This document shows, piece after piece, positions 26,108 through 64,000 of a stretch of DNA of 64,000 nt. Origin of the DNA: an uncultured Bacteroidia bacterium (GTDB taxonomy: Bacteria > Bacteroidota > Bacteroidia > Bacteroidales > UBA932); the NCBI GenBank assembly GCA_902779765.1, contig CACZCQ010000003.1, positions 124,001 through 188,000 of the forward strand, in the 5' to 3' direction. Made by a program: the position numbers and the translations under genes. Within the stretch, counting starts at the first letter, position 1, and every line of letters starts with the position of its first letter. The notes beneath the pieces were generated by a model. It saw only the letters and a program-made list of their open reading frames with translations. It was not told the DNA's origin and did not search any database.

Positions 26108-26596
26108 ATGACAACGGAGATTATAAGCAAGCACGGACTGGTGTCCAAGTCGCCTTTCGAACTCTACATGGCTTTCGTGGACATGCGGAATTTCCTCCAG
26201 ATGCTCCCGGAAGACAAGAGGCAGGACGTGGTCGCTGACTACGATACCATTACCGCCACCGTCCAGGGATTCAAGATCGGCCTTATGGTCAAGGACAGGA
26301 TTCCGTATTCCAGGATAGAGTTCATCGACTGCGGAGCTCCTTTCAGTTTCGGGGGGGCGCTGCATTTCGACGCCTCTTCGGATGAACCTTCCAGGACGGA
26401 TTTCCATATCGAGTTCCACGCCGACCTGAACCTCATGATGAAGATGATGCTGTCCGGGAAGATCAAGGAAGCTCTCGACAGGGTCGTGGACGGCCTCGTG
26501 TCGGTTTCCGAAGGACGCATCCCGGAAGGCCTCGACGAGGAGACCATGCGGAAGATGCAGGAGGAACTGGCGAAGAGGCAGGGCGGAAATCAGTGA
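26108..26596 (+). CDS. small SRPBCC-like (START-fold) protein of unknown function
   Basis: The 162-residue cytoplasmic protein begins MTTEIISKHGLVSKSPFELY. The opening (a strand, then SPFELYMAFVDMRNF), the central DYDTITATVQGFKIGLMV and the C-terminal helix resemble the START/polyketide-cyclase helix-grip fold. There are no catalytic signatures. The same arrangement next to pyrE is familiar from Bacteroidales genomes, but no function is known to me. Its stop overlaps the next ATG as TGATG. Confidence 0.75.
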   Translation: MTTEIISKHGLVSKSPFELYMAFVDMRNFLQMLPEDKRQDVVADYDTITATVQGFKIGLMVKDRIPYSRIEFIDCGAPFSFGGALHFDASSDEPSRTDFHIEFHADLNLMMKMMLSGKIKEALDRVVDGLVSVSEGRIPEGLDEETMRKMQEELAKRQGGNQ

Positions 26597-28065
26597 TGGT
26601 TGGCTTGGACGACAGGGTCCTGATGGACATCTTGGAAAGGGCGGTAGGGCCGGACCGGGCCTCCACCGCCTTCGATGCCTTCTCCCTGCCACCCTCCGTC
26701 TCAATCCGTTACAATCCTTTCAAGATAAACTGTGACCTTGATAACCCAGCTGGTTCCGGACAGCCGTCCGGGCCCGGCCGAGTCCATCCTCGCTTTGCTG
26801 CGGCTGAGTACGGCCTAAGCCCGGCGGCCGCTCCGGAAGTTTCTGGCTTTCCGGCCCTGGCGGCAGTGGCCTATGAGGACAATGCCACCCTCGGCACTAG
26901 AGGGGGGACCGGAGCGGAACGAAGTGAAGCGAGCGGTGGGGCCGAGCGCAGCGAGGCGTCCGAGTGGCCACTGCCACCGGGGGCAAGGACACGTAAGATT
27001 CCTTGGAATCCGTATGGGGTGATGCTGGAAGAGAGGCCGAGGTTCGTAATGGACCCGCTGTTCCATGCCGGATGCTATTACGTCCAGGACTCCTCGGCGA
27101 TGGTGGTCGGCCATATGGTCAGGGAATTCCTCGACCGTTTCGATGGCCTTGGAAGGCCCGTCAGGGTGCTTGACCTGTGCGCTGCACCGGGAGGAAAGAC
27201 CACGGACCTGGCGGCATCGTTGCGTGAGCGTTTCGGCGACGGTTTCCTGCTGGTCGCCAACGAGGTGATGCGCAACCGTGCATCCATCCTGTGTGACAAT
27301 GTGGCGGTCTGGGGCGATCCGAATGTGGTGGTGACCAGCTGCGACCCCAAGGCCTTTGAGAGGCTGGAGGGTTTCTTCGACATAGTCGTTACCGATGTTC
27401 CCTGTTCGGGAGAAGGAATGTTCCGGAAGGACCCCAAAGCCGTCGAAGACTGGTCCCCGGAAGCTGTCAGTCTATGTTCCGCCCGCCAGAAAAGGATACT
27501 TGCCGATGTCTGGCCCTCGCTCAGGCAGGGAGGACTGCTTGTTTATTCCACTTGCACTTTCGAGGAAGCCGAGAACGACGCCAATGTCGGATGGGCAGCC
27601 TCCGAACTCGGAGCCGAAGTCCTGGAATATGGTTATTCCAGTCTTCCCGGCGTGATACCGACCCGGACAGGAGGCCTTCTGGTGCCTGGATTCGTCCAGG
27701 GAGAGGGACAGTTCGTATCAGTGCTGGAAAAGACCGCTCCGACCGGATCGGTCCGGCAGGGCATCGAAATCCTCCGTCCGTTGAGGAACGGTCTGGAGAA
27801 AGGGACGGTTAAAGGGAAGGACCTGGTACCGTCTGCAGACTGGGCCTTGAGCATATTCCCTCCGACGGATATTTATCCTGCAGTGGACCTGGACCTCGGA
27901 ATGGCGCTCAAGTTCCTGCACCGTGACGGCATATTCATTGAAGGACAACCTGAAGGTTACCTCATAGTACGCTTCGAGGGACACCCCCTCGGATTCGTAA
28001 AGAACATAGGGAAACGGTGGAATTCCCTCCACCCCCAGAACAGAAGGATCAGAATTGACGTATGA
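26596..28065 (+). CDS. RsmF-like 16S/tRNA cytosine-C5 methyltransferase with inserted repeat elements
   Basis: This NOL1/NOP2/Sun-family enzyme has 489 residues from ATG 26596 (a GTG one codon earlier is possible). The SAM-binding motif LDLCAAPGGKTTDLAASL is near residue 193. The two catalytic cysteines are in TDVPCSGEGMFRKD and VYSTCTFEEAEN, and the C-terminal domain resembles that of RsmF. Normally SIRYNPFK is followed closely by the PW(x)PxG segment (here IPWNPYGVML). Here about 80 extra residues of Gly/Ala/Pro/Ser-rich sequence intervene (about 55-135). They are encoded by a 128-nt structured repeat and a second hairpin. The insertion does not touch catalytic motifs, so the enzyme is probably active. 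The 3' end overlaps the TPR gene (ATGA). Confidence 0.9.
   Translation: MVGLDDRVLMDILERAVGPDRASTAFDAFSLPPSVSIRYNPFKINCDLDNPAGSGQPSGPGRVHPRFAAAEYGLSPAAAPEVSGFPALAAVAYEDNATLGTRGGTGAERSEASGGAERSEASEWPLPPGARTRKIPWNPYGVMLEERPRFVMDPLFHAGCYYVQDSSAMVVGHMVREFLDRFDGLGRPVRVLDLCAAPGGKTTDLAASLRERFGDGFLLVANEVMRNRASILCDNVAVWGDPNVVVTSCDPKAFERLEGFFDIVVTDVPCSGEGMFRKDPKAVEDWSPEAVSLCSARQKRILADVWPSLRQGGLLVYSTCTFEEAENDANVGWAASELGAEVLEYGYSSLPGVIPTRTGGLLVPGFVQGEGQFVSVLEKTAPTGSVRQGIEILRPLRNGLEKGTVKGKDLVPSADWALSIFPPTDIYPAVDLDLGMALKFLHRDGIFIEGQPEGYLIVRFEGHPLGFVKNIGKRWNSLHPQNRRIRIDV
26770..26822 (+). repeat. secondary hairpin insertion in the rsmF-like gene
   Basis: GGGC-cc-GGCCG (26770-26780) pairs with CGGCC-taa-GCCC (26811-26822) around a 30-nt loop. 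It lies in the non-conserved insertion of the methyltransferase gene, 32 nt before the larger repeat element. I see no second copy in this window. Confidence 0.35.
26855..26982 (+). repeat. structured in-frame repeat element, copy A (family 1)
   Basis: A 17-nt 5' arm (26855-26871, starting CCCTGGCGGCAG) pairs with a 3' arm (26966-26982, GGCCACTGCC then ACCGGGG), with one mismatch and one G-T pair. They enclose 94 nt. Within these, the 54 nt at 26902-26955 match 51 of 54 positions of the complement of 63248-63301. A small hairpin (TGCC-ACCCTC-GGCA) just upstream is also shared. The segment is translated without stops as residues about 87-129, including GGTGAERSEASGGAERSEAS. Confidence 0.85.
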
Positions 28066-62637: not shown

Positions 62638-63543
62638 TCAAAGCCTTCTCTGGCGGACGGCCTCGTAAAGGAGGATGGCTGCGGAGACTGAGACGTTGAG
62701 GGAGTCGAGGGCTCCGAGCATCGGGATGAGGATATGCCTGTCGGCAGCCTTGCGCCAGATGTCGGTGAGGCCGGTCGACTCGGTTCCCATGACGATGGCG
62801 GTCGGTCCTGTCATCGGGGTGTCATAATACAGGGACGAATCCTGGAGCTGGGCGGTCAGGATGCTGATGCCGTGTGCCTTGAGCCAGGCGATCGTCTCTT
62901 CGGAGGTCGCAGCTACGACCTGTCTTGTGAATATGGCTCCGATGCTGGAACGGATAAGGTTGGGGTTATAGAGGTCGGTCAGAGGGTCGCAGATGATTAC
63001 CGCGTCCGCTCCGGCTGCGTCGGCGCTGCGCAGTACAGCCCCGAGGTTGCCTGGCTTCTCGACACTCTCCAGAACGATTACCAAAGGGTTCTCCCTGAGC
63101 TCGATGTCTTCCAGCTTCCTGTCCTTGTACTTTATCTCTGCAATGATTCCCTCGGTACCGCCCCTGTAGGCTATCTTCTCATAGACGTTCCGGCTCACCT
63201 CAAATACTTTGGTGCCAATCGGCAGAGGGTATACCCCCCTCGGGAGTCTCGCTTCGCTCGACCCCACCGCTCGCTTCACTGCGTTCCGCTCCGGTCCCCC
63301 CGCTTCCGTGCCGCGGGTGGCACGTCCTTTAGGGGGTATACCCTCCGCCGATGAGTCAAAGATCTCCGGGCAGATGAAGACGGTATCGGGGACGAAGCCG
63401 GCATCCAGGCAGTGGCTGAGTTCGCGGCGGCCTTCCACTACGAAAAGCCCCATCTCCCGGCGCAGCTTCGACTTCTCCTGGAGTTCCAGCAGGGTCTTTA
63501 TCTTCGGGTTCTGTCCCGAAGTTATGGTTTCGGGCGCTGACAT
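62638..63543 (-). CDS. SpoU/TrmH-family RNA 2'-O-ribose methyltransferase with inserted repeat element
   Basis: The protein has 301 residues from ATG 63543 ([12 protein letters not shown]). The N-terminal substrate-binding domain contains GLFVVEGRRELSHCLDAGFV. The SPOUT catalytic domain has LESVEKPGNLGAVLRSADAA, NPNLIRSSIGAIF, AIVMGTESTGL and IPMLGALDSLNVSVSAAILL, the knot motifs that bind SAM. Between the two domains about 45 extra residues (64-109, including GGPERNAVKRAVGSSEARLP) are encoded by a structured repeat. It is probably an RlmB-type rRNA or tRNA methylase. Its ATG overlaps the asnA stop (TAATG). Confidence 0.92.
   Translation of the reverse strand: MSAPETITSGQNPKIKTLLELQEKSKLRREMGLFVVEGRRELSHCLDAGFVPDTVFICPEIFDSSAEGIPPKGRATRGTEAGGPERNAVKRAVGSSEARLPRGVYPLPIGTKVFEVSRNVYEKIAYRGGTEGIIAEIKYKDRKLEDIELRENPLVIVLESVEKPGNLGAVLRSADAAGADAVIICDPLTDLYNPNLIRSSIGAIFTRQVVAATSEETIAWLKAHGISILTAQLQDSSLYYDTPMTGPTAIVMGTESTGLTDIWRKAADRHILIPMLGALDSLNVSVSAAILLYEAVRQRRL
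63218..63352 (-). repeat. structured in-frame repeat element, copy B (family 1)
   Basis: Arms at 63218-63240 and 63331-63352 form a near-perfect stem of about 22 bp (core GAGGGTATACCCCC), with one G-T pair and one bulged base. They enclose 90 nt. The enclosed core on the minus strand matches copy A at 26902-26955 in 51 of 54 positions and shares the adjacent TGCC...GGCA hairpin. The arms share nothing with those of copy A. It is translated in another frame than copy A. Confidence 0.85.
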
Positions 63544-64000
63544 TATATCAGTGGAATATTGTTGTCTGCACATGAAGACACCATCTCGTCAGGCCAGACT
63601 GATGCCTGGATCTCTCCGATATGGGCCTTGCGGAGGAAGAACATGCAGAGGCGTGACTGGCCGATTCCTCCTCCTATGCTCTGCGGAAGCTTGCCTTCCA
63701 GAAGCTGCCTGTGGAAGAACAGTCCGGCTTTCGATTCCTCGCCGGCGAGTTTCAACTGCCTGAGAAGGGCCTCCCTGTCGACGCGGATGCCCATAGAAGA
63801 CAATTCGAAACTGCGCTCCAGGACAGGATTCCAGACAAGGATGTCTCCATTCAGGCCCGGGAGCATCTCGCCGTCATATTCAGCCATCGTGCTCCAGTCG
63901 TCATAGTCCGCTGAGCGGCCGTCGTGCTTGTGACCGTCTCCGAGCTGGCATCCTATGCCGATCACGAACACCGCACCGTATTCCCTGCATATCGCATCCT
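63543..64000 (-). CDS. asnA: aspartate-ammonia ligase AsnA (5' end beyond window)
   Basis: Only the C-terminal ~152 residues are inside the window. The frame enters from the right edge as [59 protein letters not shown] and the ending [20 protein letters not shown] then [14 protein letters not shown] follow. These are conserved in AsnA, the ammonia-dependent asparagine synthetase that is structurally related to class II tRNA synthetases. It is upstream of and coupled to the SpoU methylase (TAATG). Confidence 0.95.

Follow-up and report, generated by a model that had tools for sequence, protein, structure and literature searches.

Small structured DNA inserts with site-specific paired arms, carried in frame in protein genes across one genus of Bacteroidales

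The window analyzed here (the whole 64,000-nucleotide stretch of DNA) contains an rsmF-like rRNA methyltransferase gene that carries, in a linker near the N terminus of its protein, a compact translated segment able to fold on itself, and the questions it raises are what kind of element this is and why the arms that close it pair. An earlier note on this DNA had placed 17-nt arms at either end of a 94-nt interior, and remeasurement reproduced this exactly to the base; the two arm positions that are not Watson-Crick pairs are one T·G and one C·A. The gene and the parts of the element are as follows.

26593..28065, + strand: open reading frame (490 aa) of an rsmF-like 16S rRNA m5C methyltransferase, with Methyltr_RsmF_N, Methyltr_RsmB-F and Methyltranf_PUA matches
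26855..26871, + strand: left closing arm, site-specific, 15/17 positions Watson-Crick with 26966-26982
26966..26982, + strand: right closing arm, pairing with 26855-26871
26877..26961, + strand: core, with inner closing pairs 26877-26880 (GGAC) and 26958-26961 (GTCC)
26883..26896, + strand: hairpin P2, TGCC ACCCTC GGCA, 98.0% of cells paired in the family alignment
26900..26904, + strand: GAGGG, which with the P2 loop CCCTC forms a probable pseudoknot, 98.3% of cells paired
26908..26937, + strand: hairpin P3, ACCG/CGGT, with a highly variable interior
26941..26957, + strand: hairpin P4, GCC-GA-GC-GCA-GC-GA-GGC, its tandem G·A pairs read by eye

A different, second repeat lies directly upstream of the element at 26760-26840 and is also read through, giving the peptide GRVHPRFAAAEYGLSPAAAPE. 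Searching the sequences examined for 20 nt of this repeat (26800-26819), with at most 3 mismatches allowed, gave 29 distinct places.

The window holds one further copy of the element, on the opposite strand and in the gene of another rRNA methyltransferase, of the SpoU/TrmH type (trmH below).

62638..63573, - strand: open reading frame of a SpoU/TrmH-type rRNA methyltransferase, with SpoU_methylase and MRM3-like_sub_bind matches
63218..63238, - strand: second-copy closing arm on the 3' side (core strand), 20/21 positions paired
63239..63331, - strand: core of the second copy, a rare CCCGC variant
63332..63352, - strand: other closing arm (5' side on the core strand), 20/21 positions paired with 63218-63238

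The MRM3-like_sub_bind match in this host is stretched, covering 124 residues against a profile of 84 positions, and the arms enclose 93 nt. When recomputed, the similarity first reported between the copies (26902-26955 against the complement of 63248-63301) again came to 51 of 54 identical positions, and the stretch common to both proved longer than had been noticed, at 69 nt with 88% identity. Their arms, as the earlier note had said, have no sequence in common, yet 15/17 and 20/21 positions pair. A scan of the 64-kb window for 17-nt arms in which 15 or more positions form Watson-Crick pairs across a spacer of 60 to 140 nt returned 2 places, these two copies, while ten first-order Markov sequences used as controls gave 1, 2, 0, 1, 0, 0, 0, 0, 0, and 0 places.

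The element is one of many. We found 18 clear copies and 2 chance-level matches in the window's own genome (G000; 2.48 Mb in 31 contigs) and 26 matches at E 1e-8 in another genome (G188). Among 61 genomes of the genus, 12 gave BLAST matches to the core, one of them the window's own and some of the matches weak, and a covariance model (R1) built from 59 copies detected the element in 183 of the 300 genomes examined from this genus, again with the window's own, compared with 3 of 294 other genomes drawn from Bacteroidales (4 of 295 with the window's own), in a survey whose filters were stricter once more than 40 genomes were taken. When named genome records were searched for an exact core pattern, 20 stretches matched, every one in a record with Bacteroidales or Bacteroidia in its title; nine of the titles refer to ruminant stomach, nine carry RUG names, which we take to denote rumen, and two do neither. 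The host genus is known from ruminant stomachs. One 89-base query found no match in phages and plasmids at E 1e-3, one exact 31-base pattern found none in viral contigs, and a search of Rfam placed no family on the element and a single chance-level match (E=4.9) beside it. With a core of about 85 to 95 nt and a full length of about 125 to 160 nt including the arms, these are small, nonautonomous DNA inserts, structured, present in multiple copies, carried in frame and dispersed through one Bacteroidales genus. No description of this insert family was found in the literature searched (open-licence PMC papers).

The inserts are compatible with the proteins that carry them. Among 109 distinct copies, 92 lie in open reading frames of at least 150 codons, 56 read along the core direction and 36 against it, and 83 of these 92 use one preferred frame per strand. 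The two preferred frames are open in 99 and 102 of the 109 copies; a further frame is open in 82 of the 109 and yet serves only 3 times, so openness alone does not account for the choice of frame. Frame openness would predict 201/395 where 83/92 was observed (p=7e-16, the copies at one site being related). Hosts in the window's genome include, besides rsmF and the SpoU methylase, the genes argD, ispE, ksgA, fmt, and purD and those for a dehydrogenase E2 component and for GH92 and GH3 proteins; of ten host proteins compared with family models, one had no match. The NCBIfam matches listed for host proteins at E 1e-10 included no model named for Rickettsia palindromic elements (RPEs). The comparison with these elements drawn in the earlier note, as a structured, protein-compatible repeat, is supported in that the copies are dispersed, their arms are paired, most lie within reading frames and orthologues without the insert exist; there are further copies in the genome and its relatives, and the segment did not turn up as a conserved protein domain.

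The core has a fixed order of parts. From 5' to 3' these are the inner closing pairs, P2 (TGCC-ACCCTC-GGCA, extended downwards by steps that covary), a spacer, GAGGG able to pair with the P2 loop, P3 (ACCG...CGGT), GGTGGGG, and P4, commonly GCC-GA-GC-NNA-GC-GA-GGC, in which the tandem G·A pairs and NNA loops were read by eye. GNA loops are unusually stable in DNA. In an alignment of 59 sequences 93.3% of core cells are paired, against 34.7 to 54.6% with the partners slid, and 121 core cells show double changes, where shuffles give 50.1 and none of 500 reaches 121; since the structure was defined from the same sequences, with some subfamilies out of register in the alignment, this test leans towards it, and RNAalifold on the mixed alignment recovered P2 only. 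The trmH copy compensates within the pseudoknot, its loop changed from CCCTC to CCCGC and the partner from GAGGG to GCGGG. The core has a structure that compensates for change and probably includes a pseudoknot. Of 371 orthologous pairs with a mean flank identity of 80%, 350 have the same 14-nt P2 motif in both members, a redundant count that takes the same copy under several identifiers; conservation of this kind needs either selection on the core or re-insertion.

The arms differ in sequence from one site to another. In all 18 copies of the window's genome the best closing helix just outside the core measures 9 to 32 bp, with differing sequences, a measure made without a control in which the shortest helices (9 in L032 and 10 in L021) are not beyond chance alone. 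Judged against mispaired flanks, whose maximum of 27 is probably due to some of them being related, the arms pair above the 99th percentile in 51 of 58 locus clusters, and in the other 7 they pair with bulges when read by eye. To follow change at a site we compared 63 pairs of copies sharing site and orientation, with identical copies dropped and cells that are not independent: 847 arm cells are the same in both copies, 275 differ on one side alone, and 304 differ on both sides, of which 194 are still Watson-Crick and 110 are not, where chance would keep 1/3. With only the most diverged pair per site there are 249 unchanged and 59 one-sided cells, 68 double changes still paired, and 46 unpaired, that is, 68 of 114 paired against the same expectation. 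Compensation in the arms is well above chance, at about twice the chance level. The 275 one-sided changes show that arm pairing is often lost or out of register, many cells being out of register because of length changes.

We considered whether a transposon with ordinary terminal repeats could have inserted independently at the different sites, its arms having simply diverged. Eight copies in a genome of another family (G576, L314 to L321) do have nearly identical arms (AGGAATATGCTT / AAGCATATTCCT, with the right-hand AAGCATATTCCT in 8/8), from which it follows that arms can travel with the element, and at two empty sites (L240 and L030, below) both arms are absent, as such a transposon would have it. 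The surplus of double changes that stay paired (194 of 304) runs against simple divergence, and we regard this explanation as very improbable.

If the insert were a structured RNA, with selection on the transcript maintaining its closing stem, this would account for compensation in the outer arms and for covariation of the core helices and pseudoknot. An RNA would be expected to prefer G·T mismatches to A·C. The outer arms of 71 clusters hold 1,551 Watson-Crick, 37 G·T, 27 A·C, and 106 other cells, and the G·T excess is significant neither on the core strand (37 versus 27, p=0.26, only 64 cells) nor on the gene strand (29 versus 17, p=0.10, only 46 cells); the core helices (9 G·T versus 3 A·C) do not differ significantly from the arms, and the test is small throughout. 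The core also lies either way round relative to the gene (48 copies in the same direction, 33 opposite, and 17 in no long open reading frame, among 98), and the absence of a match in Rfam likewise weighs against this reading, which we judge improbable. The structured-RNA interpretation of the earlier note therefore stands in part: the core helices do covary, and the closing stem as a mark of a functional RNA is unsupported, given both gene directions, the lack of a significant G·T excess, and the two-way sites described next.

Sites filled in several genomes hold the core in both orientations. Among 113 distinct copies with flanks, 26 sites have at least two distinct filled copies across genomes, and both orientations occur at 16 of the 26. 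Nine of these 16 have flipped cores with a similarity of 75% or more; the other seven, at 51 to 75%, may be different elements at one place, except trmH, which is exempt because the window's genome and G041 share the rare CCCGC motif. Inverted and same-orientation pairs number 24 and 23 at 70 to 80% flank identity, 32 and 37 at 80 to 90%, and 7 and 3 at 90 to 97%; restricted to cores at least 75% alike, the counts are 19 and 22, 24 and 32, and 4 and 2. These near-equal counts indicate that orientation is close to random, near relatives included. The evidence consists of differences between genomes, not within a population, and in general inversion in place and re-insertion look alike in it. 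At the trmH site the orthologue in G041 has the same 14-nt motif as the window's genome, flipped relative to the flanks, a pattern that favors inversion in place over re-insertion.

Two-way cores invite a further explanation, a recombinase-driven intragenic inverton in which a site-specific enzyme flips the core between its arms, and reversible DNA inversion is described in gut Bacteroides in the passages of PMC10939037 that bear on it. The 16 two-way sites suit it. The arms share no sequence between sites, which would leave a sequence-specific enzyme with no shared target, except if it recognizes the core or the shape of the hairpin, and we consider such an enzyme distinctly improbable.

Both outcomes, compensating arms and cores in either orientation, are those that template switching between inverted-repeat arms produces, homogenizing the arms and inverting the spacer, as reported for yeast genes in the parts of PMC8604942 concerned with it, and for this reason we tentatively attribute the stem pairing mainly to that process. 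We hypothesize that a resident hairpin would be processed by a polymerase switching template between its inverted-repeat arms, which would copy one arm onto the other, could extend the stem into the flanking target and would flip the spacer, so that the closing stem would stay paired mainly for a mutational reason. The core, in turn, would be kept by selection on a folded strand, either RNA or single-stranded DNA, for use in mobility or by a cell factor, and the element itself would be mobile, with a Y1 transposase as a candidate mover. Arm copying fits the data better than a covarying RNA stem does. Counting against it are the 275 one-sided arm changes, the seven two-way sites whose flipped cores are less than 75% alike, the empty sites from which both arms are absent, the nearly identical arms of the G576 copies, the small size of the G·T comparison and, most strongly, the restriction of the evidence to differences between genomes and the conservation of P2, which also fits repeated re-insertion, a process that could itself give flipped cores. 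As a whole explanation, an arm-copying DNA insert with a selected, folded core is the one we adopt tentatively, at a little under an even chance.

Empty sites bear on how the arms arise. Taking "unfilled" to mean that the P2 motif is absent, and with several comparisons representing one site under two identifiers, there are 17 such comparisons for G041 and 20 for G384, each over part of the genome. The best-matched empty site (L240, G398 against G384, flanks 89 to 91% identical) lacks both arms, as does the empty site at L030, and a general model in which the arms are a target plus its inverted copy fails at these two sites. Elsewhere one arm end may predate the insert: in an argD-type gene the empty form reads ANDG-YEPLIKE and the filled form SDG...core...PSD-HQPMIKE (our translation), and with SDG at the outer end of one arm, that end appears to be old and the other arm a later addition, in line with arm copying. 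In fmt it is the opposite side that appears old. G041 retains bare palindromes or arm pieces at three sites, and in its E2 gene part of the core with other sequence inside, and several of its "empty" sites look like deletion scars, as some of those in G384 may also be.

Orthologous rsmF genes had been proposed as the place to look for a clean empty site. Four orthologues (G151, G143, G020, and G082) lack the insert; the rsmF gene of G276, which has only GTCTGAC at the place, was set aside as a clean empty site and may instead reflect excision, since its relatives carry the insert. Two other rsmF genes are of interest in themselves: in G145 (L123) a copy with young-type ends lies between apparent remains of an older element, and in G296 (L125) an extra insert of roughly 85 nt, measured by eye, sits within the core. 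A third repeat (around CTGAGGGGCGTTCCCCTCAGAC) was seen at 10 places in the sequences examined, including L192:8985, L104:286, and L010:1306, and at the argD-type site it is present in G041 where G276 has the core element.

The main competitor to arm copying is a single-strand-acting transposase of the Y1/RAYT type that inserts into small palindromes or makes an inverted target copy, so that the arms are paired from birth and flipped cores are re-insertions. Y1_Tnp matches occur in 219 of the 300 genomes of the genus, in 155 of the 183 with the element and 64 of the 117 without it (odds ratio 4.6, p=2e-8, uncorrected for completeness or kinship), and this association speaks for such an enzyme, as do two Y1 genes near ksgA copies, one about 1.1 kb away in G188 (L303) and one about 1.5 kb away in the window's genome (L010/L313), the latter match being below the family cutoff. 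In the first 20 genomes 18 had a Y1 match, comprising 12 of 12 BLAST carriers and 6 of 8 BLAST noncarriers, four of which (noncarriers G016, G043, G072, and G082) the model later called carriers. The same ksgA sites, filled in both genomes, also hold several different repeats side by side. Short, site-specific paired extensions are already present, by eye and among the copies listed, where the inner arms are nearly identical (GCCAGTCTGG...CCAGAGCTGGC), and G041 has a bare palindrome, CTTCTGCCAGTCTGGCAGAAG, where G161 and G276 carry the element; both are expected if pairing is present from the start, but the palindrome may be a scar between direct repeats. Further against the transposase, 28 genomes with the element have no Y1 match and 64 with a Y1 match have no element, none of the 12 Y1 loci fetched is directly flanked by the core, and compensating change in old copies is unaccounted for. 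A Y1 transposase is thus a candidate mobilizing enzyme, and as the source of the paired arms we find it possible, although unlikely.

Arm copying might be taken a step further, to self-flipping protein linkers: each insert would be an inverton that needs no enzyme, its hairpin itself causing frequent inversion and rewriting of the arms. A genome would toggle linker peptides in about a dozen housekeeping proteins, and the element would have evolved frames open on either strand, allowing translation in both states. We think this rather doubtful. If arm copying itself is correct, the copying of DNA arms within protein genes can produce apparent covariation of a stem, a pattern usually read as the sign of a functional RNA, and the family offers dozens of natural replicates for measuring such copying and its effect on proteins. 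Protein-coding palindromic elements would extend from Rickettsia and Wolbachia to a Bacteroidales genus, in 183 of its 300 genomes, and how such elements move would become a testable question.

The closest known counterparts are the Rickettsia palindromic elements, which as described in the portions of PMC2229807 available to us are 105 to 146 bp long, form long stem-loops and lie in frame in protein genes and also between genes; by that description they resemble the present family in size (∼100 to 150 bp), stem-loop, dispersal, and both kinds of site, and the title of a reference in the same paper indicates a Wolbachia equivalent of the same kind. The family described here differs from RPEs in its site-specific, compensating outer arms, two-way cores, probable pseudoknot, and phylum, and the arms and two-way cores are absent from the RPE descriptions in those portions. 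Correia/NEMIS and ERIC/RU-1 MITEs, as presented there, are likewise small, nonautonomous repeats that fuse in frame to host genes, but their terminal inverted repeats are of set size, whereas the arms here vary by site. In Nematomorpha mitochondria long inverted repeats also occur within translated genes, with both arms encoding conserved protein and no dispersed core element mentioned in the text of PMC6649704 that we drew on. The intragenic DNA inversions of Chanin et al. 2024, as cited in PMC11892184, likewise present a gene segment in both orientations; here, by comparison, the copies are dispersed, the arms have no common sequence, and the evidence lies between genomes. REP/RAYT systems, finally, share dispersed palindromes, and Y1 genes are commoner in the genomes that carry the element described here, but REPs measure 20 to 40 bp in the passages of PMC3733652 on their size, and the core directly flanks 0 of 12 Y1 loci.
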